From Nitrospirota bacterium (lineage in GTDB: Bacteria; Nitrospirota; Thermodesulfovibrionia; Thermodesulfovibrionales; JdFR-88), in contig JAKAGP010000008.1 in NCBI GenBank assembly GCA_021825785.1, forward strand, positions 1 through 14,215: a DNA stretch of 14,215 nucleotides. Direction: 5' to 3'. Made by a program: the position numbers and the translations under genes. The notes under the pieces were generated by a model that saw only the letters and a list, made by a program, of their open reading frames with translations, did no database searches and was not told where the DNA came from. Shown one piece after another: positions 1 through 14,215 of the stretch (positions are counted from its first letter, which is position 1; each line of letters begins with the position of its first letter).

Positions 1-1038
1 AGCTCCAACGCCAGCGTGACCGCCCTGATTCAAGGGTTATTGCTGGCCGAGGAAAAGAGCAATCCCCACGGCACAGGGATAGCGATAAAAACCTTAAGCG
101 GAAACAACCTGGTCCGCAAGAAGGGCGTAAGGGCCAGGACCTTTCTTCTCCAGGGCCATGCCAACTTCCTCTGGGAAAAGAAGTACCGCTACGCCCTGGG
201 GCACGTGAGGTTCAAGACCGCGGGAAAGCAGTCGGACAGAAACTCCCATCCCTTTGGCGTCCGGGTGCATGACAAATGGCACTTCGGCATCCATAACGGG
301 GTGATAGGCAAGACAAAGGAGCTTGCCCAGGAGTTCGGCGTGAGGCCTGCGGCCGTGGACAGCGAGACGTTCTGGAGATGCGTGGCAAGGCTCCAGAACC
401 GGGGCGAGGACGTCGTCACCGCCATAGAGAAGGTCACGGACTTCATCTCCGACAAGGGGGATTTCGCCTTCGCCTACATGACGGAGGGCGAGATCTTCTT
501 CTGGAGAAACGACGAGAGGCCCCTTTCCGTTTTCGACGCCCGAGAGCACCGGATGGGGAGGGTCATAGCCTCCACCAAGGAGGTGTTCACGAAGGCATGG
601 GAATGGGCCTGCCCGGGCCTGGATATCGGCAAGGTCACCTATTTCGAGGCAACGCCCTACAGGCTCTACCGCATGGCTGCGGACACGAGCCCGAAGTACG
701 AGGTCGAGGCGGTCAAGGACCTCGAACACAGGGCGAAAACGAGCAGATCCGTGGCGAGTCCGTCGCGCTACTTTTCGCATGGCGGTATGGACTATTTTGA
801 TCGGGGAAGCCAAGGCGGATTCTGGGACGAGTACTGGGGTGAAGGCGGGGCCGCCGGAAATGACGACGACCTCTACGGCGTAAGGGACCTCTCCGATACG
901 GAGATTACCGACGCCATATTCAACGCCGGGCTTGAGATGGACCAGAAGCCGCGGAATGACCCGCTCTATAGTGATTGCAAGGACTACCTGGCTGCCCTCC
1001 AGGGCGAAAGGAGGCGACGGAATGTCGACGGAGTTTAA
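1..1038 (+). CDS. Class II glutamine amidotransferase-like protein, 5' truncated by window edge
   Basis: The reading frame is open to base 1, and the GTG at 16 is only the first in-frame start codon inside the window, so the gene probably begins outside it. The visible part has the core of a GATase_6/7-type Ntn-hydrolase fold: GHVRFKT near residues 62-68 (counted from the GTG), HPFGV near 78, the IHNGVI loop near 92-97 and a DSE.F element near 116-119. In class II amidotransferases these line the glutamine pocket, and the nucleophile is an N-terminal Cys-2, which would lie left of the window and cannot be checked. No synthase partner domain follows. The last about 100 residues are low in complexity (Gly, Asp, Tyr). 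Stand-alone proteins of this type are frequent in phages and plasmids, but the substrate is unknown. The end overlaps the next gene by 17 bases, which suggests an operon. The family call is fairly firm and the function is not. Confidence 0.75.
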   Translation, partial: SSNASVTALIQGLLLAEEKSNPHGTGIAIKTLSGNNLVRKKGVRARTFLLQGHANFLWEKKYRYALGHVRFKTAGKQSDRNSHPFGVRVHDKWHFGIHNGVIGKTKELAQEFGVRPAAVDSETFWRCVARLQNRGEDVVTAIEKVTDFISDKGDFAFAYMTEGEIFFWRNDERPLSVFDAREHRMGRVIASTKEVFTKAWEWACPGLDIGKVTYFEATPYRLYRMAADTSPKYEVEAVKDLEHRAKTSRSVASPSRYFSHGGMDYFDRGSQGGFWDEYWGEGGAAGNDDDLYGVRDLSDTEITDAIFNAGLEMDQKPRNDPLYSDCKDYLAALQGERRRRNVDGV

Positions 1039-1423
1039 AAAGGTTCGGGACGAGGACTGTGCCGCCGTCCGAGAGCTTCTCTTCGCCCATAATCCCGGGG
1101 CCGTCATCCAGGGCCGCTACTACATGGCCGTGGAGGATGGCGTTATCAAGGGGATCGTGGGACTGCTGTGGAGGAGCTGGTACCTGAGCGAACTCCGGCA
1201 CCTCTACGTAAAGCCGGAGTTCAGGCGGACAGGCATTGGTGCTTTCCTTGTGGAAAAGGCCCTTGAAAGGGTCAAGACCCCTCTTGCCTGCTGCACGGTA
1301 AGAGAGGACAACGAGGGAAGCCTGACGCTTTTCAGGTGCGAGGGTTTCATCGTGGAGAGGCGGTTCGCAAACCCGGAAACGGGAAATACCGTCGCCCTCA
1401 TGATGCGGTCCACAGAGTTTTAA
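1022..1423 (+). CDS. GNAT-family N-acetyltransferase
   Basis: This encodes 133 residues starting MSTEFKKV. The ATG at 1022 was chosen because AAAGGAGG lies about 7 bases before it; the frame extends upstream but has no better start. The protein has the usual small GNAT layout. A central strand ends in LRHLYVKPEFRRTGIGAFLVEKALE, where R-R-T-G-I-G is the acetyl-CoA pyrophosphate-binding motif A (Q/R-x-x-G-x-G/A). Motif B follows with DNEGSLTLFRCEGFIVERR (sidechain-neighbour and aromatic positions of the acceptor side). Such enzymes transfer acetyl from acetyl-CoA to an amine of a small molecule or protein; the acceptor cannot be deduced. The start overlaps the end of the amidotransferase-like gene, so the two are probably cotranslated. 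A 10-bp stem hairpin follows the stop. Confidence 0.85.
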   Translation: MSTEFKKVRDEDCAAVRELLFAHNPGAVIQGRYYMAVEDGVIKGIVGLLWRSWYLSELRHLYVKPEFRRTGIGAFLVEKALERVKTPLACCTVREDNEGSLTLFRCEGFIVERRFANPETGNTVALMMRSTEF

Positions 1424-1433
1424 GCGGATTTCG

Positions 1434-1457
1434 GAGAGGGAAGGCGACTTCCCTCTC
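1434..1457 (+). other. Perfect 10-bp hairpin with GCGA tetraloop after the GNAT gene
   Basis: GAGAGGGAAG (1434-1443) and CTTCCCTCTC (1448-1457) are exact reverse complements around a GCGA loop of GNRA type. It starts 11 bases after the GNAT stop. The following bases are pyrimidine-rich (TCTCCTCC) but not a T-run, so it is either a weak terminator or an mRNA 3'-stabilising stem. Confidence 0.5.
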
Positions 1458-1475
1458 TCTCCTCCATCTCCTCCG

Positions 1476-1525
1476 GCAGGGGCCGGCCGAGTGCTTGAGA
1501 AACCGAGCATTCAGCCGGCCCCTGC
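1476..1525. repeat. Long near-perfect inverted repeat (REP-like or mRNA leader hairpin)
   Basis: GCAGGGGCCGGC (1476-1487) and GCCGGCCCCTGC (1514-1525) are exact 12-bp complements. After one mismatch, the inner arms GAGTGCTT (1489-1496) and GAGCATTC (1505-1512) pair over 8 more positions with two G-U pairs, leaving an 8-base loop. No T-tract follows, so it is not a standard terminator. It lies in the leader of the small ORF at 1561, about 25 bases before its ribosome binding site. Confidence 0.6.
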
Positions 1526-1560
1526 ATCGCAGGGAAAATCACTTTCTCAAGGAGGAGAAT

Positions 1561-1755
1561 ATGTACGTCAGAGTCAGGATCAACGGCAGAACTTTTTTAC
1601 TCTCCGAGGATGAGTTTATGAAGCTCGTCCTTGGAATGACCCCAGCAAATCCGGTCGACGTGCTGGATTTCGTGGGGGGTAGGCAAAGGGGAGAACGGCA
1701 ACAGTGCCGTTCTCCCCTGTTTAGTTTTAAATTGACACTCGCAATGCCGATTTGA
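1561..1755 (+). CDS. Small hypothetical protein, 64 aa, 3' end overlapping a terminator
   Basis: The ATG at 1561 follows AAGGAGGAG at a good distance, so translation initiation looks real. The first about 40 residues (MYVRVRINGRTFLLSEDEFMKLVLGM) look like a compact beta-hairpin plus helix of the kind found in small phage or plasmid proteins; I do not recognise a family. The last 22 codons lie over a perfect terminator hairpin and the next promoter's -35 box, which is unlikely for a natural C-terminus. A run of six G at 1674-1679 precedes this part. One more G would create a TAG directly after FVGG and end the protein before the hairpin at about 42 residues. The annotated end is therefore doubtful, and the start and N-terminal part are more credible. 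Confidence 0.5.
   Translation: MYVRVRINGRTFLLSEDEFMKLVLGMTPANPVDVLDFVGGRQRGERQQCRSPLFSFKLTLAMPI
1688..1728 (+). terminator. Rho-independent terminator
   Basis: GGGGAGAACGGCA (1688-1700) and TGCCGTTCTCCCC (1705-1717) form a perfect 13-bp stem around the loop ACAG, followed by TGTTTAGTTTT. It would end the transcript of the left block before the AT-rich gene pair, whose promoter begins 4 bases further on. Confidence 0.85.
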
Positions 1756-1761
1756 TGTAAT
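1732..1761 (+). promoter_or_regulatory. Sigma70-like promoter of the soluble/membrane gene pair
   Basis: TTGACA at 1732-1737 is an exact -35 box. With an 18-base spacer, TGTAAT at 1756-1761 matches the -10 consensus at five of six positions. It directly follows the terminator and precedes the GTG start at 1793, leaving a leader of roughly 25 bases. The pair therefore has its own insulated promoter. Confidence 0.7.
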
Positions 1762-1792
1762 ATATAAATTTTTTCAAGAGGGGGGAACGGGC

Positions 1793-2659
1793 GTGAGCGC
1801 GAAGAGAAGAAAAATTGATCGGTACATTTTAAAGGTACTTGGGAACAAAAAACAAGACCGCTTACCTGCGGGAATCATTAAAGAGACTTTGGAATATATC
1901 ATGTCTAAATCCGAACTGGATAGAAAAATAGAGGATACATCTACCAACCGCATTCACTATCTCCACCAAATCAACTTTGTCAGCAATTATGGAATAGGCT
2001 TTTTTGTGTCCGCAAAACATCATCATCGTCCTCCTCTCATTAATGCAGAAACATTAGCGGAAAGAGATAATCCTAAGGAGATAACCGAAGGCGAACAAGA
2101 AAAAACCCATTTTGCTTTGGGTCTTGGCGATCTGGAAGCATATTTATTATTAGAAAAAAAGCAGGGCGGCATGACAGCAGGAAGATTCGTCAACTACTTA
2201 AATAATAACATGCGCCAATTAAAAGGCACGGGCCAGCAAATTGAATATGACATCATCGTATCCCAGAATTTTTTGTCTAAACTCAGAGAAATGCCGAGAA
2301 TTTTTGCCGCCGAAATCTATACGACATCTGACCTCCTTACTGATACTTTTTTGAGCGATGCAGTAATTTCAAGCGAAACACGAGAGGAAATAGAACTAAC
2401 TATCAAGGCGAAAAAGGGGAAATCAATCAAAAAGAAAGCCTTAGAAGGTCTTTATAAGGCGTTTGCTGCACAGCAAACAAAAACTATTAGAAGGATGCGA
2501 GTACTAGGCAAATCCGATGAGAATGATTTTCTGCTCTTGGATACTGACCGTTTGGTTGAAGCGGAATATATTGAGGTAGAGTTGGATGCTAATGGACAGG
2601 TCACAACTAGCTCTATAACCCCCAAGATTAGAAACATGATCAGGGCGATGCTCGAATGA
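1793..2659 (+). CDS. RexA-like candidate: soluble 288-aa protein of a two-gene abortive-infection-type pair
   Basis: The GTG start at 1793 follows AGAGGGGGG. The protein has no signal peptide or membrane segment and is basic at its start (MSAKRRKIDRY). I know no catalytic motif in it. Its layout recalls lambda RexA (279 aa). An N-terminal part has a Y-H-x-I strand near residues 55-58, followed by a hydrophobic strand (GIGFFVSAK). Then comes an acidic loop and EKTHFALGLGDLEAYLLLEKK-type strands leading to GRFVNYLNNNM, where RexA has a comparable FLFVEGDTIGFAR segment leading to TSDLTDFL. The likeness is by eye over spacing and pattern, not identity. The ATGA overlap with a four-helix membrane protein repeats the rexA-rexB order. 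In lambda, RexA is the intracellular sensor that activates RexB. Function here is inferred; the gene is clearly real and much richer in A/T than the preceding genes. Confidence 0.6.
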   Translation: MSAKRRKIDRYILKVLGNKKQDRLPAGIIKETLEYIMSKSELDRKIEDTSTNRIHYLHQINFVSNYGIGFFVSAKHHHRPPLINAETLAERDNPKEITEGEQEKTHFALGLGDLEAYLLLEKKQGGMTAGRFVNYLNNNMRQLKGTGQQIEYDIIVSQNFLSKLREMPRIFAAEIYTTSDLLTDTFLSDAVISSETREEIELTIKAKKGKSIKKKALEGLYKAFAAQQTKTIRRMRVLGKSDENDFLLLDTDRLVEAEYIEVELDANGQVTTSSITPKIRNMIRAMLE

Positions 2660-3177
2660 AGTTAGGGAAATATTGTTATACTGATTTTGTTTTTTCAATA
2701 CTCGATTATTTCAGCATTCTTAATAAAAAAGAATTTGCCTTTGAATGGATACCTCCCATAATAGCCGCATTGGCTGCTTACATATTTGGCAAAAAATATG
2801 CTACTGACGATTTTTTGAAAACTTTTCTTTCACTAATAACGAATGTTTTTGCCATACTTGTTGGTTTCACTATTGCCGCTATTGCGATATTCGCATCTAT
2901 TGACATAGAAAAAAATGGAATTTTGAATAAAAAAAGTGATCGCGAAATACGGGGAAAAGAGATTAGCTATTTCAGGTTCGTGTTTATTAATTTGGTCTTT
3001 TCGGCAGTTGTCGGGATAATTATGCTTGCGGCTGCCTTGTTTTCATTTTTCATGATGCAATTTATCGAGAATGCCATCGTTCTCTCCTTAATTGTCTTTG
3101 GAACAGTGTTCAATTTGCTAGCGGCGATACGAAATACTACAAATTTATACTTCGTGCTTTTCAAACGGGTTGAATAA
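2656..3177 (+). CDS. Small four-helix membrane protein, RexB-like candidate
   Basis: This encodes 173 residues. The ATG overlaps the previous stop as ATGA, so translation is coupled. Four hydrophobic segments lie near residues 31-46 (IPPIIAALAAYIFG), 59-82 (NVFAILVGFTIAAIAIFA), 107-132 (VFINLVFSAVVGIIMLAAAL) and 139-159 (AIVLSLIVFGTVFNLLAAI). A charged cytoplasmic-type loop (EKNGILNKKSDREIRGKE) sits between the second and third, and there is a short basic tail. Lambda RexB (144 aa) also has four helices, with the same long polar loop in the middle and a short charged C-terminus, and acts as an ion channel that depolarises the membrane when RexA is triggered. Other defence membrane effectors with four helices, such as KwaA of Kiwa, are an alternative; there the membrane gene normally comes first. 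The membrane nature is firm and the Rex link is inference. Confidence 0.6.
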   Translation: MKLGKYCYTDFVFSILDYFSILNKKEFAFEWIPPIIAALAAYIFGKKYATDDFLKTFLSLITNVFAILVGFTIAAIAIFASIDIEKNGILNKKSDREIRGKEISYFRFVFINLVFSAVVGIIMLAAALFSFFMMQFIENAIVLSLIVFGTVFNLLAAIRNTTNLYFVLFKRVE

Positions 3178-3270
3178 GGAATAGGAAGCCTCGTCATAAC
3201 TGGAATGGCTCAAAAAACGAGAAGGTTTGGTTGTTATCGTACATGTGCATTGGCATTTTGACTTCCCATC

Positions 3271-3293
3271 AAACTGGCCAGCCTGTTTCTTTT
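3271..3293 (+). terminator. Weak terminator-like hairpin after the gene pair
   Basis: AAACTGG (3271-3277) and CCTGTTT (3282-3288) pair with one mismatch around CCAG and are followed by CTTTT. It lies about 95 bases after the membrane-protein stop and directly before the IS element. It is short, so only tentative. Confidence 0.3.
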
Positions 3294-3297
3294 CTAA
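3294..3297. repeat. Left copy of IS target-site duplication (CTAA)
   Basis: CTAA directly precedes the left IS end and is repeated directly after the right end at 4617-4620. Confidence 0.75.
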
Positions 3298-3315
3298 CAG
3301 GTTGTTGAAAAAGTC
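3298..3315. repeat. Left terminal inverted repeat of the IS element
   Basis: CAGG..GTTGAAAAA is shared with the right end in inverse orientation; the two mismatching bases are TT here and CC (opposite strand) at the right end. Confidence 0.75.
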
Positions 3316-3385
3316 TCCCGAAGTGGCATAAATAGTGCATATTATTTTCAGCCTCAACAGATACCGAAACGAGGAGGAAGATAAT

Positions 3386-4468
3386 ATGCGCGGCGGCGAC
3401 AAAAAAATGGAAGGAATGTTTTGTTATTTATCAGCGGAATCCGTGGTGCCGACCGATCATCCCCTGCGGCCGATACGCAAGATGGCCGAAGAGGCCCTGC
3501 AGCAATTATCATCCTCATTTGAGAAGATGTATTCCCATACAGGGAGACCGTCGATAGCTCCTGAGAAATTAATGAAGGCGTTGCTGCTGCAGACGCTGTA
3601 CTCGGTCAAGAGCGTGCGGATGCTCATGGAGCAGTTGGGATACAACATCCTCTTCAAGTGGTTTGTTGGATTAGCGATAGATGATAGGGTATGGGACCAT
3701 TCAACGTTCTCCCAGAACCAGGACCGGTTCATAAACTCGGATATAGCGAAGGCGTTCCTGGAAAAAATACAGGAGCAGGCAGGGAAAGCCGGATTGCTTT
3801 CGAGCGAGCATTTTTCAGTTGATGGGACTCTGATAGAGGCCTGGGCATCCATCAAGAGTTTCCAGGAGAGAGATAAACAGGGGCCGCCTGCCGGGAGTGG
3901 CCGTAATGATGAGGTGGATTTCCATGGAGAGAAACGCTCTAACGAGACCCATGAATCCACGACCGATCCTGACAGCAGGTTATTTAAGAAGGGCAAAGGG
4001 AAGGAAGCCAAGCTCTCTTACATGGGTCATGTGCTGATGGAAAACAGAAATGGCCTTATCGTTGATACCGAGCTTACACTTGCAACCGGGACAGCGGAAC
4101 GTGAAGCGGCAGAAAATATGGTGGAAAATATTCCTGGCTCGCACCGGATAACTATCGCTGGCGACAAGAACTATGACACGAACGGCTTTGTAGAGGCGAT
4201 AAGGGAGTTCAACGCCACGCCGCACGTAGCGCAGAATGATAAGAACCGCTCTTCAGCAATAGACCAAAGAACAACCCGGCACGAAGGATATGCAATCAGC
4301 CAGAAATACAGAAAGCGGATCGAGGAAATATTTGGCTGGATGAAGACGGTCGGCAATCTCAGGAAGATCAAATACCGGGGGCGAACGAAAGTCTCATGGC
4401 ACTTCACCTTCGCAGCGGCGGCATACAATCTGGTAAGAATGAGAAATCTTGGGGTTGGCACGGCATGA
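3386..4468 (+). CDS. IS5-family DDE transposase
   Basis: This encodes 360 residues. The ATG at 3386 follows GAGGAGGA; an in-frame ATG at 3335 exists but lacks such a site. The N-terminal part (DHPLRPIRKMAEEAL through the helix-rich QTLYSVKSVRMLMEQLGYN) is the DUF772-type DNA-binding region of IS5/IS1182-like transposases. The catalytic RNase-H-like domain follows, with the first Asp in FSVDGTLIEAW (near 144), the second in IAGDKNYDT (near 257) and the Glu in the helix RKRIEEIFGWMKT (near 315), a typical DDE set with the Y-x-x-R-x-x-x-E-x-x-F-x-W signature around the Glu. It cuts and joins the element ends. The frame is intact from start to stop, so the enzyme may be active. The end repeats and the CTAA duplication support the IS5-group assignment. 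Confidence 0.95.
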   Translation: MRGGDKKMEGMFCYLSAESVVPTDHPLRPIRKMAEEALQQLSSSFEKMYSHTGRPSIAPEKLMKALLLQTLYSVKSVRMLMEQLGYNILFKWFVGLAIDDRVWDHSTFSQNQDRFINSDIAKAFLEKIQEQAGKAGLLSSEHFSVDGTLIEAWASIKSFQERDKQGPPAGSGRNDEVDFHGEKRSNETHESTTDPDSRLFKKGKGKEAKLSYMGHVLMENRNGLIVDTELTLATGTAEREAAENMVENIPGSHRITIAGDKNYDTNGFVEAIREFNATPHVAQNDKNRSSAIDQRTTRHEGYAISQKYRKRIEEIFGWMKTVGNLRKIKYRGRTKVSWHFTFAAAAYNLVRMRNLGVGTA

Positions 4469-4598
4469 ATGCGGTAAAAGGCGAAAAACAGATCAAAATA
4501 TCAGATGAAAAAAGGTCGAAAGACTTCAAGATTAATGATATCGGATGCAGGAATAACAATTGGACATCCCAAAATGAAGGAATGTTTGCTGAAAAAAG

Positions 4599-4616
4599 GC
4601 GTTTTTCAACGGCCTG
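4599..4616. repeat. Right terminal inverted repeat of the IS element
   Basis: TTTTTCAAC..CCTG is the inverse of the left end. It lies about 130 bases after the transposase stop, so the element has a short noncoding tail. Confidence 0.75.
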
Positions 4617-4620
4617 CTAA
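4617..4620. repeat. Right copy of IS target-site duplication (CTAA)
   Basis: CTAA directly follows the right IS end and matches the copy at 3294-3297. Confidence 0.75.
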
Positions 4621-4763
4621 ATGCCTGGAGAAACTCCAGGAAATATTTCAGAGCGCCTTGGAACAGCATATTTATATCGCGAGGTAGAAAATGAATGTGC
4701 TCGCATTTCTGGATTCAATGCGCAAAGGACAGTAAGGGGCCGCTAAATAGCGCTTCGCGACGC

Positions 4764-5339
4764 TCAGTGATCAGAGAAGTGGAGTTTCACCCCGACAAAT
4801 TTCAGCGCAGCAGTCAGGTGATCCCGGTCCGCCTGAGTAAGAGGCCTCCCAAGAACGGCGATATTAAGTAGAATGTGTAGTTTAACATCATCGGGAGGAA
4901 GCCCCGGAGCCTTCGCCACGAATTCAAGAGCTTTTCGCAAAGCCGTTTCCCATTTGAGCAGCGTTCCCTGCGAGACCAGCAGGAGATCATTGTCGTCCAG
5001 CCTTAACAGGAACACGGAACCCAGCCTGTCAATTACAGACGCTTCCTGCTGGATCGCCTCCCTGGCGATGTCACATACGCCCTCGGGGTCCGATGGCAGG
5101 ATTCTGCTCTTCTTATCTTTCGAATACCTGTTCAAGACCGCATCCTTTATGTATGTCTTGATATCCGCCTTGGGCATGTAATCCGCCAAAACTTTGCCGA
5201 CATCCTTGTCCTTCACAAGGTTCTCCATAAATAAGCCGCTGTCTACCCGGCTCTTGTGAGTGTAGCCGAACTCGTCGGCTTTGCGATAAACAGCCTCCTT
5301 GATAGCCTGCCGGACCGCCGCAGGCAGTTGCTTAGCCAT
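4764..5339 (-). CDS. Unrecognised 191-aa protein, last gene of the MORC-type restriction operon
   Basis: The ATG at 5339 overlaps the helicase stop by 8 bases and has GGAGGG 6 bases before it, so it is a real, coupled gene. The protein is mostly helical, with no signal peptide, membrane segment or Cys/His metal site. The N-terminal half is charged and holds ADEFGYTHKSRVDSGLF and a TYIKDAVLNRYSKDKK segment. The C-terminal half has a strand pair (SVFLLRLDDNDLLLVSQG) and a long helical region ending ALKFVGVKLHFSD. I recognise no family and no nuclease motif. Its fixed position behind the helicase suggests a DNA-binding, specificity or adaptor role in the same system, but this is only context. 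No convincing terminator follows its stop. Confidence 0.75.
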   Translation of the reverse strand: MAKQLPAAVRQAIKEAVYRKADEFGYTHKSRVDSGLFMENLVKDKDVGKVLADYMPKADIKTYIKDAVLNRYSKDKKSRILPSDPEGVCDIAREAIQQEASVIDRLGSVFLLRLDDNDLLLVSQGTLLKWETALRKALEFVAKAPGLPPDDVKLHILLNIAVLGRPLTQADRDHLTAALKFVGVKLHFSDH

Positions 5340-6996
5340 TGAAACCCTCCGGGAACTTCAGTTTTTCAGTGTCACCAGCGTCGCTCAGGTCGGCGACATC
5401 CGCAAGCCATGCTTCAATGAACCTTTCTCCTGAAGGATCGGAAAAGCTCACCACACCGTCCTTGAGGAAAACGTATTCCTTCTCTCTGCCCCGCCTCCTC
5501 GCCTCGTGGTCGAGTTCCACTACCTCAGCCATCCGACGCACATCGGAGACGAAATCCAGCACGACCACCTTCTCCTTGTCGGGGGCTAAGCGAAGGCCTC
5601 TTCCGAGCTGCTGGACGAAGATGCGACGCGAATGAGTAGCCCTGAGAAAAACAAGGATGTTGACATCGGGAATGTCGATGCCCTCGTTCATAACATCGAC
5701 GGCCGTCACGGCGACAAGTTTTCCGCCCGCGAATGCGAGAAGACGCTTCCTGCGCTCGACGCGATCGCTTATGGACAACGACTCGCAGGGGGTTCCCTTG
5801 GCGCTAAGCATCGCCGCGAATCTCCCAGCGTGCTCGATGGAAGGGGAAAAGATGGCCATTCTGGGGTTGCGGATTGTCGAGGCGATGCGCGATATCTCCG
5901 ACATCACCGCCTCATCGCGCTGCGGTAGGAACAGGCGCTTATTCAAATCCCTTATGGTTAACCTTTCCCTCGAAATCGACGGTAACACCTCCCAGTCGAT
6001 GTTGTCGCAGTAGAGCCGGTAGTCCACCCGTGCGAGAAACCCCATCGCCATGCCGTCCACGAGGGATACTCGCGCGATGGGTTCTCCGAAAAGCTCGTCT
6101 ATAGATTTGCCATCGCCGCGCCACGGGGTCGCAGTCATGCCGATCAGGAACTTCGGAGCCAAGTGGTCCACACAGGCCCGGAACCCGTGGGACAGCGCGT
6201 GATGGGCCTCATCGACCACTACCACGTCGAAACTGCCGGGTTCTATCCCGCTCAGGTAGCCGGTGAGGCTCTGGTATAGGCCGAAGTTCGCTCCTTCGTA
6301 TATCAGCGGCGGCATCCCGTCGAAGAAATACCGCGTTGGCACCGATTTGGGGAGTTGTGGCCAGAATCCCTGTTCGAGCTGTAAAGCGAGGTCCTGGGCG
6401 TGGCAGAGGACAAGGATTTTCCTGCATCCCCTGCCCCAAAGCCTTTTCACTATCTCCCCGGCGATGACAGTCTTCCCGAGTCCGGTCGCGACCACATACT
6501 GCGCCCTTCGCCCGCCGGCATCGAATATTTCGATTGTCCTATCCACGATCTTGGACTGATATTCCCGCAAGGGTCGAGTCGCCGAGTGCATTTCGGGCCA
6601 TTTTGCTAGAAGCTCGACGAGGAATTTGCCGTTCCACAACTTCACTTCGAACCCCGCCCGTTCCAGCGCTTGCTTCCGCTTGTGAACCGACGGCGAAAAA
6701 TCTCCGTTGGAAGCGAGGGCAGCGACATGTGCCATGTAAACGGACTGCGCCTGCATCACCTCGTCCAAGCCCGCCTTGCCGACATAATTACCACCAGCGA
6801 CAGCCTTGACCTGCACGACCCAGCTTCTTGGCGATCCTTCCCGATCCCGGACGCCGACGATATCCGCTCCCATGTCTCCCGAACGTCCAATGATGGCGAC
6901 GTCGCGCCAGCCACAGTGGGACATCAGCCTAGCGACGGCCCGCTCAAGGGCTCGCCAGTCGGTCCCTTTTAGCAGGTCGTTGGTGAGGAAACTCAC
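5332..6996 (-). CDS. SF2 helicase with N-terminal Mrr-like nuclease domain
   Basis: The start chosen is the GTG at 6996, which forms a GTGA overlap with the stop of the GHKL gene; the frame extends to 7095 but that part lies in the preceding gene. The product has 554 residues. Residues 13-130 look like an Mrr_cat/PD-(D/E)XK restriction domain: WRALERAVARLM, then GADIVGV (Asp near 45) and VVQVK (Gln 62, Lys 64), the D...QxK pattern of that fold. The SF2 helicase core follows: LREYQ (Q/I region), ATGLGKT Walker A (Lys near 175), VVVVDEAHH (DEAH near 262-265), GMTATPWRGD motif III, and QQLGRGLRLAP motif VI. It is expected to move along or open DNA and possibly cut it. It would be the main restriction subunit of the operon, powered together with the GHKL ATPase. 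Cleavage activity is inferred from the motif pattern only. Confidence 0.88.
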   Translation of the reverse strand: MSFLTNDLLKGTDWRALERAVARLMSHCGWRDVAIIGRSGDMGADIVGVRDREGSPRSWVVQVKAVAGGNYVGKAGLDEVMQAQSVYMAHVAALASNGDFSPSVHKRKQALERAGFEVKLWNGKFLVELLAKWPEMHSATRPLREYQSKIVDRTIEIFDAGGRRAQYVVATGLGKTVIAGEIVKRLWGRGCRKILVLCHAQDLALQLEQGFWPQLPKSVPTRYFFDGMPPLIYEGANFGLYQSLTGYLSGIEPGSFDVVVVDEAHHALSHGFRACVDHLAPKFLIGMTATPWRGDGKSIDELFGEPIARVSLVDGMAMGFLARVDYRLYCDNIDWEVLPSISRERLTIRDLNKRLFLPQRDEAVMSEISRIASTIRNPRMAIFSPSIEHAGRFAAMLSAKGTPCESLSISDRVERRKRLLAFAGGKLVAVTAVDVMNEGIDIPDVNILVFLRATHSRRIFVQQLGRGLRLAPDKEKVVVLDFVSDVRRMAEVVELDHEARRRGREKEYVFLKDGVVSFSDPSGERFIEAWLADVADLSDAGDTEKLKFPEGFNG

Positions 6997-9332
6997 TCGA
7001 CGATTTCCAGCGCTAGGAAATTGATGCTGTGCGAACAGCGAGACAGCTCTTCTTTCCCGCGCGCGAGGGATGCGGTTCCCGACTGGCCGACCCACAGCGC
7101 ATCCTTTAGAAACGATATGATCCTATCCTTGGATTCGCTCCGGGCTCTTTCGGTCGCTTGCTGGTCTCCCAAGGTCAACGACGCATACGGCGCCACGAAC
7201 ACCTTGCCGTCGAATAAGTCCTCTGGGAACCTGTCCACAAGTCGGAAAAGCGTCCTGAACGGCACGTGCCGGAGAGCCTCGAAGCCGCCGTCCTCCCTGT
7301 TCTGGAATTTCAAGACAAGAGAACCGTCCGACAGCATCGACAGGACGGTTTCCTCCACTTCTCCGCTAGATTCGTGAACGCATTCCAATACTTGGGCCTT
7401 CTTGTCCACAAGCTTCTCCATCAGCTTTTCGCGGAGCCGATCGAATATGCCCGCAGCCTTCTCCTGAAGAGCGCTCTTGTCAACACGGAGGTCCTGTAAC
7501 CTGCCCTGGACTATTGAGGAAAAGACTGCTCCGATGTCGCTCAGACCATCGCGCGCCTTGAATTTCTCGGCTAGGTAGACTGTGAGAAGTTGCCTCGGCT
7601 CGACCGGAAACTGGGCCAGCAACTGATGGCGTGGGTTGTAGACAAAATCGCAGTCCACACCGTCTTGGAAGAATGCGCAGGGGACGAAGTCGCCGTTTTT
7701 CTGGATAGAGCCTTCCCTGAGCTCCCAAACCTTGACCTGGAAAGGACGAGCCGTTTGATAGGAGTATGCTCCCGACCACGAACTCATTTCCCGAGACTTC
7801 TGCATCAGCGCATCCAGGGTCGAACTGGCCGGAACTGGAGCGACGACTATCGCGGAGGCTGCCGGAGCCGATGTCACGGGAGTTTCGGGACCATAGTCGT
7901 CGGGATTGTCGGACGCCTCGGTTCCCGCATCCACGACTGCGGCGGTTCCAGCGCCGCGCGTAGCGTTCAGACGGTCGGCTTCCTGTGCCGCCTGCCACCA
8001 CCTGTCGTCGGATGCGTAGTCCGGGTCTCCGCGACGAAACCGCTCTGCGAATTCCTTGGCAACGGATCGGTCCACGTAAAGGCATTTCGTTCCAGGGTCC
8101 GGCCTGCGGTATGCGTTCGCGAGGAGTCCGATTGGGGAAGTGTTCGGGTCGCTGTATCCCATCGCCTTCCGGTCCTGCGGAAGAATCGGACCGACGCCAC
8201 GCAGGGCCTCCACCGTTTCGGCCCAGGACGGGTCGGTCCTGTCGAAGTCGTTCTTCTGGTATGTCGGCAGTAGATAATCTATGTGAACCTCGCCCACGAT
8301 GCGCCCGCCTACGGTCGTTCCGAGTTCGACGGGGTATTCCAGTTTCGCCGCTCCCGTCAGCGGGTTTTCGTAGGAAAAGAGCATCTTGTTGCTTATGAGG
8401 ATTTTTCTGCCGTTGCGGATGAAGTCTATGCCGAAATCGTTGGGATCCGCATATCGCTGAATTCCGACCCAGCCCCTTAACCTTTTCTGGCGCTCGATGA
8501 TGTTCGCCGGATACCGCCCCTCGGACCCGAATTTTTCACGGGCCGTTTCCTGCTCGTCGCGGGAGAGGTACGTGTTGCGCTCGACATCGAAGAGGGCGCT
8601 TCCGAGATCGCGGTTGATTTGGATCACTGCGGGGATAGTGCGTCCGTCGCGAGACACGTACCGTGAACTTCCCCACACGCAATGGCTCCTGCGGGAGAGC
8701 TTCTTCCCCTGTATGAAAATCTCCACCTCGATTTCCGCGAGGAGCGGCGAGTATATATTCTCCAGTTGCCGGCGGATGATCGCTTCCTGATCCCTGAGAT
8801 GCGCATACGTCTCGCCCTTCAGCTTTGATACGACTACCTTCGTCCCGTGTTCGGACGGGTCGCGCTTCGGTTCCGACACGACTTTCGCAGCGTAGCTTTT
8901 CGTGCCGATGAGCGCTGCGAAATCGATCTCGATGCCTGTCCATTCCGAGCTTTCCGGCGTAGCGGAAAGAAGGCGCGTGCTCTCGCCAAGCCTCGCCGTC
9001 GATATATTGAAACCCATGCCAAAGAGCCCAAGGTTGCTGACAGGGTCGTTGCTGGAGTAACCCGCCCGCGCGGCGTTCTGGAGCTGTTCAAGGACCATCC
9101 CGGGGCCGGTATCGACTACCTCGACGGTCCGCGAGCCGGATGCGACCGCCTCGCTGGACCAGGAGACGGAAACCCTCTTGTCTGGCAAGGAAGTGCCAGC
9201 CCTGACGGTTTCCGAGAAGGCGTCAACGGAATTATCGATAAGCTCAGCGAGGCACTGCCACGGCTGGAAAGGTATCTCCCCGAGAGTCCTCAGTATCCGC
9301 GGGTTAGGAGTTATGTCGATGGTTTTTATCAT
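6993..9332 (-). CDS. MORC/MutL-like GHKL ATPase, 779 aa
   Basis: The ATG at 9332 overlaps the methyltransferase stop as ATGA. The N-terminus is a GHKL (Bergerat) ATPase. The N-box is LAELIDNSVDAF (Glu 30, Asn 34), motif G1 is VVDTGPGM (Asp 74, Gly 76, Gly 78) and the ATP lid is NLGLFGMGFN (Gly 102-Gly 107). A second-domain motif GTKVVVSKL lies near 162-170. The region to about 430 resembles the transducer (S5) domain, with FIRNGRKIL and YQKNDFDR elements. An Ala/Pro-rich linker near 450-510 separates a C-terminal part of about 270 residues that I do not recognise. MORC-type proteins linked to DNA methyltransferases, Vsr and helicases were described as parts of restriction systems (Iyer, Abhiman and Aravind 2008). 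They are thought to clamp or loop DNA in an ATP-dependent way. Here it would connect recognition with the helicase-nuclease encoded next. Confidence 0.85.
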   Translation of the reverse strand: MIKTIDITPNPRILRTLGEIPFQPWQCLAELIDNSVDAFSETVRAGTSLPDKRVSVSWSSEAVASGSRTVEVVDTGPGMVLEQLQNAARAGYSSNDPVSNLGLFGMGFNISTARLGESTRLLSATPESSEWTGIEIDFAALIGTKSYAAKVVSEPKRDPSEHGTKVVVSKLKGETYAHLRDQEAIIRRQLENIYSPLLAEIEVEIFIQGKKLSRRSHCVWGSSRYVSRDGRTIPAVIQINRDLGSALFDVERNTYLSRDEQETAREKFGSEGRYPANIIERQKRLRGWVGIQRYADPNDFGIDFIRNGRKILISNKMLFSYENPLTGAAKLEYPVELGTTVGGRIVGEVHIDYLLPTYQKNDFDRTDPSWAETVEALRGVGPILPQDRKAMGYSDPNTSPIGLLANAYRRPDPGTKCLYVDRSVAKEFAERFRRGDPDYASDDRWWQAAQEADRLNATRGAGTAAVVDAGTEASDNPDDYGPETPVTSAPAASAIVVAPVPASSTLDALMQKSREMSSWSGAYSYQTARPFQVKVWELREGSIQKNGDFVPCAFFQDGVDCDFVYNPRHQLLAQFPVEPRQLLTVYLAEKFKARDGLSDIGAVFSSIVQGRLQDLRVDKSALQEKAAGIFDRLREKLMEKLVDKKAQVLECVHESSGEVEETVLSMLSDGSLVLKFQNREDGGFEALRHVPFRTLFRLVDRFPEDLFDGKVFVAPYASLTLGDQQATERARSESKDRIISFLKDALWVGQSGTASLARGKEELSRCSHSINFLALEIVE

Positions 9333-10363
9333 CTCCCGTCCACTATCCTGTTCATGAATGCGGCTATTGATTTAGCGACGTGGTATGCAAGGAGCGGGGG
9401 GACAGCATTGCCTATCTGCATAACATTCGTAGTCGCGGAAAACTGGAACGCGAAGCTGTCGGGGAAAGTCTGAAGACGGGCGCATTCGCGGACAGTGAGG
9501 CGCCGAGGCAGAGCATAGTGGAACTGTATGCGGGACTTGGCGTTCGCCCTCACGGTGTACGAAGGCCGACCTGCCCTGCTAGTCTCGTCTCCCTGCCCGT
9601 TGCCCTTCTTGGCCCTGCTGGCCCTGAAATATTGGCTCTGGTTCGAGACCGTTTCGTCGGTGACCTCCTCCAGGTTGGCGATTGCCCAATCGATGCTCCG
9701 GTGCGCCGTCGCGTGGGTCGGTTGCGGCTTGACGGGCTTTCCAGAAAGATCGTCCCGCACGCCGATGAAAAAGAGTCTCGACCGTTTCTGCGGGACTCCG
9801 TAGTCGGGAGCGCTCAGGTTCCACACCTCGAAGCGGTATCCCGCCCCTTCGAGGTCCTTAACTATGGTGTCGAGAACCGAACCGCCCCCCATCCTAGCGA
9901 GATGGGGCACGTTCTCGGCGACAACGACTTTAGGCCTGTGGGAAGTCATGTATTTGACCAGCGTCTGATACAGCCTGCCCCTGTTAGACTTCAGCCCCGC
10001 CTTCGGACCGCAGGACGAAAAATCTTGACACGGGAATCCCCCGACCAGCAGATCGGCTCCTGGCATGTCCGACGCCGACGAGACCGCCAAATCCCTCACC
10101 TCCGCATGGCGTGCGATGTTCGCGTTGTAGGTAGACACGCACTTTTCGTCGCTGTCATATGCGACGACGATGTCGAACGGGAGAGGGTTCAACCTAGACC
10201 CCATGTATTCGAAGCCACCCAAAAAACCTAAGTCAAGCCCTCCGCACCCCGCGAAGAAGGAGACGACCGAATGTCTCGGTCTTCTATGAACTCTCGCCCT
10301 TGGCCGATTTCCAAGCGTATCGTTGCTTCGCGCCACGTCCTTGCACGGCACTTCCATCGGCAT
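9329..10363 (-). CDS. C5-cytosine DNA methyltransferase
   Basis: This encodes 344 residues with all key motifs of the family: FFAGCGGLDLG (motif I, near 36-46, S-adenosylmethionine binding), GGFPCQDFS (motif IV, catalytic Cys 112), AENV (motif VI, Glu 150), QKRSR (motif VIII, near 192), RLTVRECARLQTFPD (motif IX, from 288) and IGNAVPP (motif X, from 317). It transfers a methyl group to C5 of cytosine. The target-recognition part between motifs VIII and IX is short (about 90 residues) and does not let me name a site. The start is uncertain: ATG at 10363 or at 10357, both after GGGGGTGG. No in-frame start exists nearer the vsr stop, so an overlap of about 80 bases with the preceding gene is real. 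It would protect host DNA against the operon's nuclease(s). Confidence 0.95.
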   Translation of the reverse strand: MPMEVPCKDVARSNDTLGNRPRARVHRRPRHSVVSFFAGCGGLDLGFLGGFEYMGSRLNPLPFDIVVAYDSDEKCVSTYNANIARHAEVRDLAVSSASDMPGADLLVGGFPCQDFSSCGPKAGLKSNRGRLYQTLVKYMTSHRPKVVVAENVPHLARMGGGSVLDTIVKDLEGAGYRFEVWNLSAPDYGVPQKRSRLFFIGVRDDLSGKPVKPQPTHATAHRSIDWAIANLEEVTDETVSNQSQYFRASRAKKGNGQGDETSRAGRPSYTVRANAKSRIQFHYALPRRLTVRECARLQTFPDSFAFQFSATTNVMQIGNAVPPLLAYHVAKSIAAFMNRIVDGR

Positions 10364-10769
10364 ATGCCACCCCCAGAAATCTCCTTATCCTGCCCGCGAC
10401 CTGATCGATTCTCCGCAATTGGCACTCCCAGACCACGAGCGATTTCCACCCGAGATCACGGAGCCTTTTTAGATTCGCCTCGTCCCTGGATCGATTGGAA
10501 GTGATCTTGCCCGTCCAGAAATCCACCCTCGATTTCGGTATGCGCCCCAAAGAACAGTCGTGTCCATGCCAGAAACACCCGTTTACGAAAATAATCTTCC
10601 GACGGGAAGCGAAAACTAGGTCCGGCTTGCCTGGCAGTTCTCTTCGATGAAGCCTGTATCGAAATCCCATGCCATGGACGAGCTTCCGTACTAACATCTC
10701 CGGCTTCGTGTCGCGGGAACGCACTTTCGCCATCTGAGCGCTTCTTTGCTCGGGCGTTAGATTGTCCAT
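10284..10769 (-). CDS. vsr: Vsr-type (very short patch repair) endonuclease
   Basis: The ATG at 10769 shares its A with the TGA of the upstream regulator gene (TGATG). The 161 residues match the Vsr family along the whole length: SRDTKPEMLVRKLVH (18-32), GFRYRLHRRELPGKPDLVF (35-53, metal-binding Asp 50), IIFVNGCFWHGHDC (59-72) and a C-terminal GWKSLVVWECQL. Escherichia coli Vsr nicks next to T:G mismatches formed by deamination of 5-methylcytosine; a Vsr next to a C5 methyltransferase fits that job. The position of E. coli His64 is Asn 63 here, while the FWH intercalating segment is kept. In this operon type Vsr could alternatively take part in restriction. The order vsr before the methyltransferase differs from the E. 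coli dcm-vsr order. Confidence 0.93.
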   Translation of the reverse strand: MDNLTPEQRSAQMAKVRSRDTKPEMLVRKLVHGMGFRYRLHRRELPGKPDLVFASRRKIIFVNGCFWHGHDCSLGRIPKSRVDFWTGKITSNRSRDEANLKRLRDLGWKSLVVWECQLRRIDQVAGRIRRFLGVAYADGSAVQGRGAKQRYAWKSAKGESS

Positions 10770-10975
10770 CAGTACCTCTTTGCGTCACGTTCGAAGGGCA
10801 ACATCGACCCCTCCCTTTCCTCAATCAGCTTCTCCACCGCCCTTCGGATGCACCACGCCACGCTGACCTTGCTCTTTTTAGCCATGCTAGTCAGGAGTTC
10901 GTACTGATCCGAGGACAGGGTCGCAGTGATTCGCACGGTTTCCTTCTTTACATTTTTTTGAGTGCTTGTCACCAT
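10769..10975 (-). CDS. Ribbon-helix-helix (Arc/CopG-type) regulator, candidate controller protein
   Basis: This encodes 68 residues from ATG 10975. A GTG at 10987 and an ATG at 10984 are in frame, but GGAG is too close to them and lies 11 bases before 10975. After a short polar tail comes a beta strand (KETVRITATLS), a helix (SDQYELLTSMAKKSK), a turn (VSVAW) and a second helix (CIRRAVEKLIEERE), the ribbon-helix-helix plan of Arc, MetJ and CopG-like repressors, which bind DNA as dimers through the strand. It is the first gene of the operon, and the promoter just upstream carries a 20-bp-spaced direct repeat. It probably represses its own operon, as controller proteins do in restriction-modification systems. 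The TGATG junction couples it to vsr. Confidence 0.8.
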   Translation of the reverse strand: MVTSTQKNVKKETVRITATLSSDQYELLTSMAKKSKVSVAWCIRRAVEKLIEEREGSMLPFERDAKRY

Positions 10976-10979
10976 AATA

Positions 10980-11006
10980 TGCATCACTCCGCAGTATTTT
11001 GCATCA
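10980..11006. promoter_or_regulatory. Candidate operator: direct repeat TGCATCA with 20-bp spacing
   Basis: TGCATCA occurs at 10980-10986 and again at 11000-11006, exactly two helical turns apart. One copy abuts the -10 box and the other lies in the leader. Same-face tandem sites fit cooperative binding of a ribbon-helix-helix repressor such as the one encoded directly downstream. The ATAAT ends around the two copies also form an imperfect inverted repeat. Confidence 0.45.
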
Positions 11007-11034
11007 TTATAACAGCCTCATTCGAGGATAGCAA
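11006..11034 (-). promoter_or_regulatory. Promoter of the six-gene restriction operon
   Basis: On the minus strand TTGCTA (11034-11029) and a perfect TATAAT (11011-11006) are separated by 17 bases. The transcript would start near 10999, giving a leader of about 25 bases to the regulator ATG at 10975. Confidence 0.65.
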
Positions 11035-11276
11035 TGAGCAATTACTCTTGATAACGATTCTTTTCCCTTGCCCCCTGTATCATAACACTGGCTTATTTCT
11101 TCTAATAATTCAACTGGTTACATACAAGGCGTGCCTATTTGGTTATCAGATGGGCTCAGCGTGGAAGCAATAACAGCTCTTTTAATCAGAAAGTAAGCCT
11201 AGTAGATAAAACGAGATTCTCTTCGGACTATGATAAGAAGCAAAGGCGCGAGAGGTCAGATTCCTTCTGGGACTTT

Positions 11277-11552
11277 TTAAGAACTCGGGCCTAATGAAGC
11301 CGTTTTGAACTCTGAAAATTGTCTGTCTATTTTCGCGAGGTCAGTCTTTGTCTGAGAAAGAATTTCTTTAAAACAGTTTGGGCAATATGTCTTCCCTCTG
11401 CCCATAGTACCAGGTTTGCGGACTTCGATACAATGAGTGTCCTTCTCAATGGAGCCATCACAGCGATGACAAGGGCGTTTTTTGCCAGCTTGTACAAAAT
11501 GAACGGCACCAGCACCGCTACCAATTAGAGACGGCGTTTTACCTTTTTTCAT
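11277..11552 (-). CDS. Small zinc-ribbon protein, 91 aa
   Basis: The start chosen is the ATG at 11552, preceded by GGCGGAGG; the frame runs to 11603, but without a ribosome binding site. It overlaps the end of the helicase gene by 14 bases, so the two are coupled. A CPxC-type ribbon is clear: PCHRC (Cys 28, Cys 31) and YCPNC (Cys 57, Cys 60), with HCIEV between, which should bind one zinc. The N-terminus is basic and Gly-rich (MKKGKTPSLIGSGAGAVHF), and the tail is a short helix (SQTKTDLAKIDRQFSEF). I do not recognise a family beyond the zinc ribbon. Position suggests it works with the helicase, for example as a nucleic-acid-binding accessory. Confidence 0.75.
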   Translation of the reverse strand: MKKGKTPSLIGSGAGAVHFVQAGKKRPCHRCDGSIEKDTHCIEVRKPGTMGRGKTYCPNCFKEILSQTKTDLAKIDRQFSEFKTASLGPSS

Positions 11553-13566
11553 TTTCCTCCGCCTTTCTTTTTTGAAAAAGTCTGGTAAAGTAATCAAGAA
11601 CATCTTTCAGTTCTTGGATCCCGCGCTGGTAATCGGCAGTTTTTAAAGTGTTCCGTTTGCCGGGTTCTATTTCAAGTCGTTTATTAATTTCACGATTAAT
11701 GAGCTGGACAGCGGCAGTAAAATTGGTCCCGGAGGTTCCAGGAGCCAATTTGAACGGTAAGTCCCGTCCCGCTATAGATATCTCAAGCCTATTCAGTAGT
11801 AGTTTTGCCGTCCTTTTCACTTCCTCATCAAGGCGTTTTTTTGCCTCAATTCTTTCCTTTTGTGGCTGGACTGGAAAAGGTGAAGCAGCGTCTACGGCAC
11901 GCCGCTTTCCGGCCGCATGCCCTCTGATATAGGCATCGAGAGTTGCCGCATCAAAACCAAGAGCCTCAGCCTGAGCTTTTAATTCTGCAATAAGGACTTC
12001 GTCATCGGGATCGATAAAATCTTCTTCAAAAAAGTTGGAAATGATTTCCCGCTGAACAACCATATCTTCGGATAATTTCTTGCGAGCGTCTCCAGATAAG
12101 ACTTCTTCAGGCGGTTCGGGTTCATCTCCTGAAATGAGATTTTCAAAAAATTCCTTATCCTCCCTTTCCATATCCTTGAAATCTTCTAATAAGCGATCCG
12201 TATTCAAGCCGACATGTGTAACTACATAACCATAATTATCGGGATGACGTGGGTCGCTTTGAACGATAACTCTCATGATTCTGCCGATGAACTGTATATA
12301 TGGAGCCAGCGATCGAAAAGGCCTGAAAATAGCTGCAACGCTTAGATGAGGATGATCAAAACCTTCTCCCAGCATTTGGACTTGGATGATGCAATCCAAA
12401 AGACCGGATTTGAGTTTCTGTAACACTTCGTCTTGTTTTTCGGTTGTCATTTCGCTGCTGATGATTTCTGCCCCATACCCTCTTTCAGCATAAAGAGATC
12501 GTATAGCCTTCGCATGTGCTATTGAACATGCAACAGCTATTAATTGATGTTGTGTGCCTGATTCCCTGAGTTTTTCCAGACGGTCTAAGCTCGCGTCAAC
12601 TATATTGCGATTACATTCCATTGATAGCGCGACCCCTCGGCTAAACCAATCTTCCTCTTTTAACTGTAGGACTTCATCCAAAGTCAAATGGAGCTCTTTA
12701 CCCTTATAAGTAAAGTACAACTCGTCTGGGGCAACATAAATTGCCTGCAATTTTTTTATATATCCTTTCAGCATCGCCCGTTTGAAAGAATAACGATATA
12801 TGAGTTCCCCATCGATTTGTTTGCGATCGCTTCTGAATGGCGTAGCAGTGAGGTTTATCACTTTTGCGTTTGGAAATTTATTGAAAACCTTTTTCCAGCT
12901 CGGAGCCGCGCTATGATGTCCTTCATCGACAAGAATCATATCAAAAAAATTATCGGGAAAAGCTGAAAGCCATCTATCAGCCCTGCTAGCAAGTTGCTGT
13001 ATATTTGTAAGCACAATATGGGAGCGGTCGCAATCATGAATATTGGCGTCTTTGCCATCGAGAAGTGCAACATACGGACCCGCTGCCATGACGTCTTCTG
13101 AAATGACATTAGTCTTACGCCAAAAACATTTTCGGCGGTTAGAGACGTTAAGAGCATCGAACAGTTCTGTTCGAATGGTCACGTTGGGCGCAATTACCAG
13201 GATGCGCCCTTGTGCTATGCCGAAGGGAAGAATCGAGATGAGGCCGGACTTACCGCAACCAACGGGCAAGAGAACGATTGCTTGTTTATTTTGTGGACTT
13301 GAAAAGAAATCTAGAGCGGCACCATGAGCTTCTTTTTGTGGGTCCCTGAGGAGTGGATTACCATCTGTATCCGCTTGCACACTTACAAAGAATTCATTGA
13401 AAGGTTTATTCGCCTTGACCCATTTATCGAGATCATCTTTATTGAACCGCCAAACCTTGCCTATCCGATTTGCGGGAATTCTTCCGTCTTGTGCTAGCGA
13501 ATATAAATTGCTCTGGCTTATACCCAGATACTTTGCCGTCGTTTCGACGTCATACCATTCTGCCAT
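11539..13566 (-). CDS. Excisionase-type HTH domain fused to SF2 (DEGH-box) helicase
   Basis: The start is ATG 13566 (AAGGAG 8 bases before) or ATG 13572 (only 2 bases after that site); numbering here is from 13566, giving 675 residues. Residues 3-49 are an HTH_17/MerR-like excisionase domain (YDVETTAKYLGISQSNLYSL, then GRIPANRIGKVWRF and DLDKWV). The SF2 core follows: IVLLPVGCGKSGL Walker A (Lys near 106), ILVIAPNV, LVDEGHH (near 213-217), NLTATPFRSD, then QVQMLGEGFDHPHL and QFIGRIMRV motif VI. About 200 residues remain: an acidic stretch (ENLISGDEPEPPEE) and a Lys/Arg-rich helical end. Such helicases are common in restriction and other defence loci, but an N-terminal excisionase domain is unusual and could target it to DNA or make it regulate its own promoter. 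No nuclease domain is evident. Confidence 0.88.
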   Translation of the reverse strand: MAEWYDVETTAKYLGISQSNLYSLAQDGRIPANRIGKVWRFNKDDLDKWVKANKPFNEFFVSVQADTDGNPLLRDPQKEAHGAALDFFSSPQNKQAIVLLPVGCGKSGLISILPFGIAQGRILVIAPNVTIRTELFDALNVSNRRKCFWRKTNVISEDVMAAGPYVALLDGKDANIHDCDRSHIVLTNIQQLASRADRWLSAFPDNFFDMILVDEGHHSAAPSWKKVFNKFPNAKVINLTATPFRSDRKQIDGELIYRYSFKRAMLKGYIKKLQAIYVAPDELYFTYKGKELHLTLDEVLQLKEEDWFSRGVALSMECNRNIVDASLDRLEKLRESGTQHQLIAVACSIAHAKAIRSLYAERGYGAEIISSEMTTEKQDEVLQKLKSGLLDCIIQVQMLGEGFDHPHLSVAAIFRPFRSLAPYIQFIGRIMRVIVQSDPRHPDNYGYVVTHVGLNTDRLLEDFKDMEREDKEFFENLISGDEPEPPEEVLSGDARKKLSEDMVVQREIISNFFEEDFIDPDDEVLIAELKAQAEALGFDAATLDAYIRGHAAGKRRAVDAASPFPVQPQKERIEAKKRLDEEVKRTAKLLLNRLEISIAGRDLPFKLAPGTSGTNFTAAVQLINREINKRLEIEPGKRNTLKTADYQRGIQELKDVLDYFTRLFQKRKAEENEKR

Positions 13567-13580
13567 TCCCATTTCTCCTT

Positions 13581-13620
13581 AACAAATAATAGCAAATAAT
13601 ACTAAATGATAAATAATCAT
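13581..13620. repeat. Tandem 10-bp AT-rich repeats across the promoter
   Basis: Four consecutive 10-base units start at 13581: AACAAATAAT, AGCAAATAAT, ACTAAATGAT, AAATAATCAT. The first three share the pattern A-N-Y-AAAT-R-AT; the fourth is shifted. One unit per helical turn would place sites on one DNA face, covering the -10 box, the spacer and the leader. Confidence 0.55.
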
Positions 13621-13625
13621 GTCAA
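13596..13625 (-). promoter_or_regulatory. Promoter of the HTH-helicase / zinc-ribbon operon
   Basis: On the minus strand an exact TTGACA (13625-13620) is followed after 18 bases by TATTAT (13601-13596), five of six -10 matches. The ribosome binding site AAGGAG lies about 15 bases further on. The -10 and spacer lie inside the tandem 10-bp repeats. Confidence 0.65.
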
Positions 13626-14205: not shown

Positions 14206-14215
14206 AACCAGTGAT

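Follow-up and report, generated by a model that had tools for sequence, protein, structure and literature searches.

A two-gene cassette in a Nitrospirota bacterium, probably an unnamed relative of the lambda RexAB system

The RexAB system of phage lambda has been known for some 70 years; PMC12894663, which gives five described RexAB-like systems, states that its activation is still unknown. PMC11077077 reports additional homologues in actinophages and a small number of orphan RexA genes in bacteria. A gene pair of comparable layout is found in a 14,215 nucleotide stretch of DNA (the window) from a Nitrospirota bacterium (assembly GCA_021825785.1, contig JAKAGP010000008.1, positions 1–14,215). 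Gene A (window positions 1793–2659, + strand, GTG start) encodes a 288 amino acid (aa) predicted RexA-fold protein, the presumed DNA-binding sensor or trigger. Gene B (2656–3177, + strand) encodes a 173 aa RexB-like protein with four predicted transmembrane segments, the presumed effector. A-B is probably a relative of lambda RexAB that has not yet been named, and its interpretation as a RexAB-type phage-exclusion module of a separate sequence family, which would act by abortive infection or growth arrest, is given a probability of roughly 0.7. The computed evidence consists of the fold and the topology predicted for A and B, respectively, conservation of the operon, and occurrence of the pair in phages and bacteria beside repressor or defence-type genes.

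The window pair resembles lambda RexA-RexB in gene order, in protein size (288 and 173 aa versus 279 and 144 aa), and in the predicted fold of A; B, like RexB, has four transmembrane segments and a central loop that is basic. There are also differences. The A and B genes share a four-base ATGA overlap, whereas lambda rexA and rexB have a 15 base pair (bp) gap between them. B is about 30 aa longer than RexB, and its N-terminal part contains a predicted helix (positions 10–21). The lambda order is cI, rexA, rexB, and phage relatives of A-B are often located likewise downstream of a repressor; unlike lambda RexAB, the window pair has no match to PF15969 or PF15968 and no repressor is seen in the window. 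The coordinates, chain lengths and overlap assigned to the cassette in the initial annotation are exact.

Other described systems have a comparable anatomy. RexABpp (PP_5643-PP_5644) of the Pseudomonas putida P1 prophage also consists of a soluble RexA-fold protein and a four-transmembrane protein and, like the window pair, was recognized by HHpred and fold rather than by BLAST (PMC12894663). Defence and membrane damage are reported as demonstrated for RexABpp (PMC12894663). It is prophage-borne, whereas no prophage is recognized around the window pair, and the comparison with it is by published description. The pairs CarolAnn gp44/gp43 and Sbash gp30/gp31 (PMC6426606, PMC6426596) likewise have a soluble protein followed by a four-transmembrane protein with a basic central loop. 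Their soluble proteins are approximately 80 aa longer than A, and profile comparison of these pairs with the window family gives scores no better than noise. By sequence comparison, A-B is a family separate from the two RexAB families compared, i.e. that of lambda and that of CarolAnn, Sbash and Sejanus. A relationship of A to the latter family was considered with hhalign (P 0.036) and is treated as noise.

The AlphaFold2 model of A displays an alpha/beta globular protein, in agreement with the soluble protein described in the initial annotation. A structure search of the model against the PDB gives two matches at E ≤ 1e-3, and both are chains of RexA (8TWQ). With a second structure aligner 8TWQ is the clear leader. 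A fold unlike that of RexA had been named beforehand as a result that would count against a Rex-like pair, and the comparison for A came out for RexA. A is thus supported, on the basis of the model, as having the RexA fold, i.e. a split globular domain and a dimerization domain.

Comparison of sequence profiles points in the same direction. With hhalign the A family scores 33.5 against ten RexA sequences, while 200 column shuffles average 15.1 and reach at most 24.7. Addition of five more A sequences raises the score to 34.5 (maximum of 150 shuffles, 22.5), and the reversed controls score 15.7 and 16.4. The alignment falls within the last third of both proteins. This score is support but not proof, because the hhalign probability stays low: it is 27–34% with ten RexA sequences and 7% with four. 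Lambda RexA itself scores 14.1, which is noise, against its accepted relatives from CarolAnn, Sbash and Sejanus; thus the profile comparison misses even accepted RexA relatives.

B displays hydrophobic segments at aa positions 27–45, 64–82, 108–126 and 140–158 by hydropathy, and its central loop (positions 83–107) has seven Lys/Arg and five Asp/Glu residues. The four membrane segments and long charged central loop first noted in B are therefore borne out. Four transmembrane segments are also found by hydropathy in all nine proteins compared, including lambda RexB, CarolAnn gp43 and Sbash gp31. The AlphaFold2 model of B, built with 20 sequences (predicted local distance difference test 87.0, predicted template modelling score 0.80), shows a short helix at 10–21 and then four long helices, with part of the central loop forming a beta-hairpin (93–98/101–104). 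Of the Lys/Arg residues outside the transmembrane segments, 14 of 17 in B and 8 of 10 in RexB are in the two termini and the central loop. This distribution is consistent with an orientation that places all three parts inside the cell in both proteins.

Several results for both proteins weigh against the RexAB interpretation. The hhalign score of B with RexB is 24.6, a value reached by 1 of 150 shuffles and not significant. The B model matches only generic bundles in the PDB. What ties B to RexB is limited to its topology and approximate size, the order of the genes and a profile score that is weak. Plain hidden Markov models (HMMs) built from the A family and from the B family score neither lambda RexA nor lambda RexB (E at least 23), and the A profile has no match among PDB sequences, 8TWQ included, up to E 10. 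The template modelling scores of the A model to 8TWQ are 0.38 and the root mean square deviation is high; this is a whole-chain comparison, and a different hinge angle may account for it. Searches of A and B against Pfam (including RexA PF15969 and RexB PF15968 at the curated cut-off), NCBIfam and PADLOC give only sub-threshold matches. The lambda pair belongs to PHROGs 12654/14878 and the CarolAnn pair to 36224/38328, and A and B match neither set. The PDC-M53 models match neither window protein, and single relatives of A and B also match PDC-M04B, 2TM effector and HamA models of PADLOC with similarly weak E-values (e.g. 2TM effector 7.5e-4 and HamA 0.0044 with single B-type proteins). No CI-like repressor is present among the window open reading frames (ORFs) scanned, a repressor being an accessory trait. 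The initial reading of a distant RexA-RexB-like pair is supported, chiefly by A, where the predicted fold and a profile score above all shuffles agree with it, and less so by B, where similarity to RexB is not significant.

Other comparisons of B are similarly negative. B shows no significant hhalign similarity to gp43, gp31 or the Sejanus protein, and its profile has 0 matches among PDB sequences. A search of the PDB for a solved RexB gave none recognizable. With the same plain HMMs of the two families, CarolAnn gp43 and Sbash gp30/gp31 obtain no notable score, and CarolAnn gp44 gives no row. Searches with tblastn against phages show no match for B and one partial match for A (E 3e-5); a search of A against plasmids shows no match.

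Lambda RexA and RexB, run as positive controls, match their Pfam, PADLOC and PHROG models. CarolAnn gp44/gp43, accepted RexAB relatives, are also without a Pfam RexA or RexB match. The window proteins do match PHROG families, A with phrog_4672 (3.6e-7) and B with phrog_4613 (7.8e-11), neither of which has an annotated function. Among relatives, the PDC-M53A model is matched at E ≤ 0.01 by 11 of 39 A-type proteins, the best at 1.2e-7. Of 20 B-type proteins, 6 match PDC-M53B at E ≤ 0.5 (best 0.0014) and one matches the PADLOC RexB model (E 0.012). PDC-M53A/B and PHROGs 4672/4613 are two-part families like A-B, with no function given. The model PDLC04696 (PDC-M53A) is silent in 390 genomes, all drawn from the phylum of Desulfocicer vacuolatum, and in the 14 controls as well, so that this says nothing about absence; the Desulfocicer genome gives no match with it either.

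The PADLOC results also bear on a different kind of two-gene defence system. Kiwa consists of KwaA, with four transmembrane segments, and the DNA-binding KwaB, with kwaA first in the gene order, and its parts list is superficially similar to that of A-B. However neither A nor B matches PADLOC at E < 1, in a library that should include the Kiwa models; the structure match of A is RexA, and the kwaA-first order differs from that of A-B. A system of the Kiwa type, or another pairing of a four-transmembrane and a DNA-binding protein, is considered very improbable.

The term "phage defence candidate" is used with PADLOC for systems that are unverified (PMC11514479, PMC12409345). Another candidate pair, PDC-M63AB, is reported as inactive in PMC12409345, thus candidacy is not function. 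A literature search, with most subscription papers outside its scope, recognized no account of the A-B family and found "PDC-M53" in no paper, nor "PDC-M" together with "RexA".

A profile query of 5.8 billion proteins finds 37 A-type proteins at E ≤ 1e-3, including that of the window, and a single-sequence query finds seven. For B, a single query at the same threshold gives 14 proteins, again with the window protein included. Nine loci have readable DNA beyond A: the window, Desulfocicer vacuolatum, a second genome of the same phylum, five virus loci from IMG/VR (L003 and L005–L008) and Anaerostipes phage AC844P2. In all nine, B is the next gene after A and has the same orientation. The two genes are spaced by −17 to +8 bp, and five loci have the four-base overlap. 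Two further loci (L004 and L023) are not included in this count, as the available DNA ends after A; L023 has a more distant A match (E 4e-16). An HMM made solely from the 14 B proteins of the single query recognizes the B protein of all nine loci; calculated for 1000 sequences, the weakest E-values are those of AC844P2 (8e-12) and L008 (1e-19). All nine A proteins are likewise recognized by an HMM of eight A proteins. Both HMMs contain the window protein, and the A model also contains those of Desulfocicer vacuolatum and L003. A and B are real genes and form a conserved operon.

The pair is rare and patchy in genomes, a distribution that would be expected if it were a module of defence or a mobile one. 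In a draw of genomes from the phylum of Desulfocicer vacuolatum, A is present in 3 of 395, one of these being the more distant match (E 4e-16). B is present in 2 of 390, both of them genomes with a strong A; the genome of L023 is perhaps outside the B draw.

A gene encoding a helix-turn-helix (HTH) or CI-type repressor is located upstream of the pair on the same strand in four of five distinct IMG/VR contigs. L003 has an HTH_19 repressor gene 249 bp away, with a Mu-type transposase beside it on the other strand. HTH_3 repressor genes are found 357 bp from the pair in L006 and about 1.5 kilobases (kb) from it in L005, and L007 has a Phage_CI_repr gene at about 1.9 kb. L009 is the same contig as L003 and is not counted separately. 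In the fifth contig, L008, the pair is directly before terminase genes, and the scan there covered terminase only. Phage AC844P2 has a terminase-like ORF, just below the Pfam cut-off, about 1.2 kb downstream of the pair. In Sbash and Butters the RexAB-like pair is described as sitting apart from the repressor.

The repressor genes also fit a lysis-lysogeny switch or a recombination regulator, where A would coat DNA in the manner of RexA or RdgC, B would be a membrane tether, and exclusion would be incidental. RexA is reported to modulate the CI-Cro switch (PMC11077077). RdgC is among the weaker matches of the A model with the second aligner, and in BFVD a phage recombination-associated protein matches at E 8e-4. 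Such a regulatory role is regarded as decidedly unlikely as the main function.

Defence-type genes accompany the phage-exclusion candidate elsewhere. In Desulfocicer vacuolatum a TIR-AAA-TPR protein and a small TIR protein are encoded just upstream of the pair (3678–6876, + strand); these TIR genes show weak PADLOC matches to ThsB-like, PDC-S66 and bSEFIR models. In L006, Vsr, HNH endonuclease and C5-methylase genes lie on the opposite strand, about 2.4 kb downstream of the pair (9838–12278, − strand). L006 and the window share a neighbour type, i.e. Vsr and C5-methylase genes.

Gene A contains the sequence signature SAKHHHRPPLI...R.NPK...EGE.EKTH at residues 73–107 (window 2009–2113, + strand), with many invariant or near-invariant columns among 39 sequences. 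Residues S73, R91, K95, E99, E103, T105, H106 and E121 are invariant and K75 is nearly so. Polar conservation is dense over residues 73–121 (window 2009–2155), and a ligand, partner or catalytic site are candidate roles. The SAK/EGE-EKTH signature is A's own, unlike lambda RexA. It appears to sit about where lambda RexA has the conserved TKTND...DESLGFPS block; in an earlier, longer alignment of A with RexA (score 27.3) EGE.EKTH is about opposite DESLGFPS.

The dense polar block would also fit a functional site in A itself, as in a pair with roles reversed. Mycobacteriophage Butters gp30/gp31 has the same pair anatomy and is reported to work in this way (PMC12894663): A would be a growth-blocking effector that B sequesters, and infection would free it. 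However the membrane protein is described as the effector in lambda, CarolAnn, Sbash and RexABpp (PMC12894663), and the four-transmembrane layout of B with its basic central loop resembles the membrane proteins of lambda, CarolAnn and Sbash. A reversal of the Butters type is regarded as unlikely.

With respect to DNA binding by A, there are only hints, i.e. a pI of 8.96 and a conserved basic strand at residues 234–240 (window 2492–2512, + strand) that is roughly in register with RexA 215–221. Lys or Arg is found at position 234 in 38 of 39 sequences, at 236 in 39 of 39 and at 240 in 26 of 38. The RexA double change R219A/K221A is reported to abolish DNA binding (PMC11077077). K240 of A is opposite RexA K221 in the profile alignment, and RexA R219 is opposite a residue that is basic in only 1 of 39 sequences.

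By analogy with lambda RexAB and RexABpp, a phage-exclusion mechanism can be proposed for A-B. A would be a two-domain RexA-fold protein that presumably forms a dimer. It would clamp DNA without sequence specificity and detect either a phage protein or an intermediate of phage replication or recombination. Engaged A would then activate B, an inner-membrane protein with its ends and basic central loop in the cytoplasm. Multimers of B would damage the membrane, growth would stop and the phage could not finish its cycle. In RexABpp, overexpressed RexA is reported to arrest growth and damage the membrane in a fraction of the cells, in a manner that depends on RexB and with no measurable depolarization (PMC12894663).

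The families phrog_4672/phrog_4613 and PDC-M53A/B, whose members occur in bacterial genomes as well as in tailed and Mu-type phages, may represent one large hidden RexAB branch, partly detached from prophages and with its own sensor-site signature, SAK...NPK...EGE.EKTH; the odds of this are put at about even. RexA relatives in bacterial genomes outside of prophages have been noted earlier, as described without RexB (PMC11077077). If the hidden branch is real, RexAB would be a general free-standing immune module and not a peculiarity of a few temperate phages. The 37 A-type proteins offer comparative data, i.e. conserved sites, natural pairs and hosts with no visible prophage, without equal in the narrow lambda family. 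A structural identity is also suggested for the database families phrog_4672/4613 and PDC-M53, which lack a function.

The cassette has a GC content of 0.35–0.39, compared with 0.55–0.61 upstream, and is AT-rich as first described. The start of gene A aligns with the starts of its closest homologues. A terminator-like hairpin of 14 pairs with a T-rich tail (1687–1718, + strand; consensus match only) parts the cassette from the upstream genes and closes their unit. A promoter belonging to the cassette had also been proposed, and by eye the sequence TTGACA-18-TGTAAT fits a possible sigma-70-type promoter (1732–1761, + strand; hexamers 1732–1737 and 1756–1761). The case is weaker than originally stated: a promoter scan upstream of gene A lists no promoter-like site, in a search whose pattern requires A as the second base of the second hexamer, which excludes TGTAAT. 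The pair presumably has a chromosomal location, judging from the 151-kb contig.

Upstream of the hairpin, a class II glutamine amidotransferase-like protein (GATase_6) and then a GNAT acetyltransferase are encoded at 16–1423 (+ strand). The GATase_6 protein has low-identity matches in 44 phage records, and among the matches listed several are annotated as glutamine amidotransferase.

Downstream, an insertion sequence (IS)-type element begins about 120 bp after gene B (3295–4619) and has 18-nucleotide inverted ends that are 83% complementary. Its DUF772/DDE_Tnp_1 transposase ORF (3335–4468) lies between gene B and a Vsr/C5-cytosine methylase/GHKL-type ATPase/Mrr-helicase operon (4764–10769, − strand). 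The restriction operon placed beside the cassette in the initial annotation is therefore present, with the transposase ORF intervening. The operon encodes a 779 aa GHKL-type ATPase, a 587 aa Mrr-nuclease and superfamily 2 (SF2) helicase protein and a 191 aa protein with no convincing match, and it recalls MORC-type restriction systems as described in PMC2292703. A 72 aa ORF upstream of vsr (10769–10987, − strand) resembles a ribbon-helix-helix regulator by eye. Beyond it, a 677 aa protein with HTH_17 and ResIII/SF2 helicase domains (11539–13572, − strand) is possibly another defence gene, and it is followed by a 108 aa ORF (11277–11603, − strand) that displays CxxC pairs by eye.
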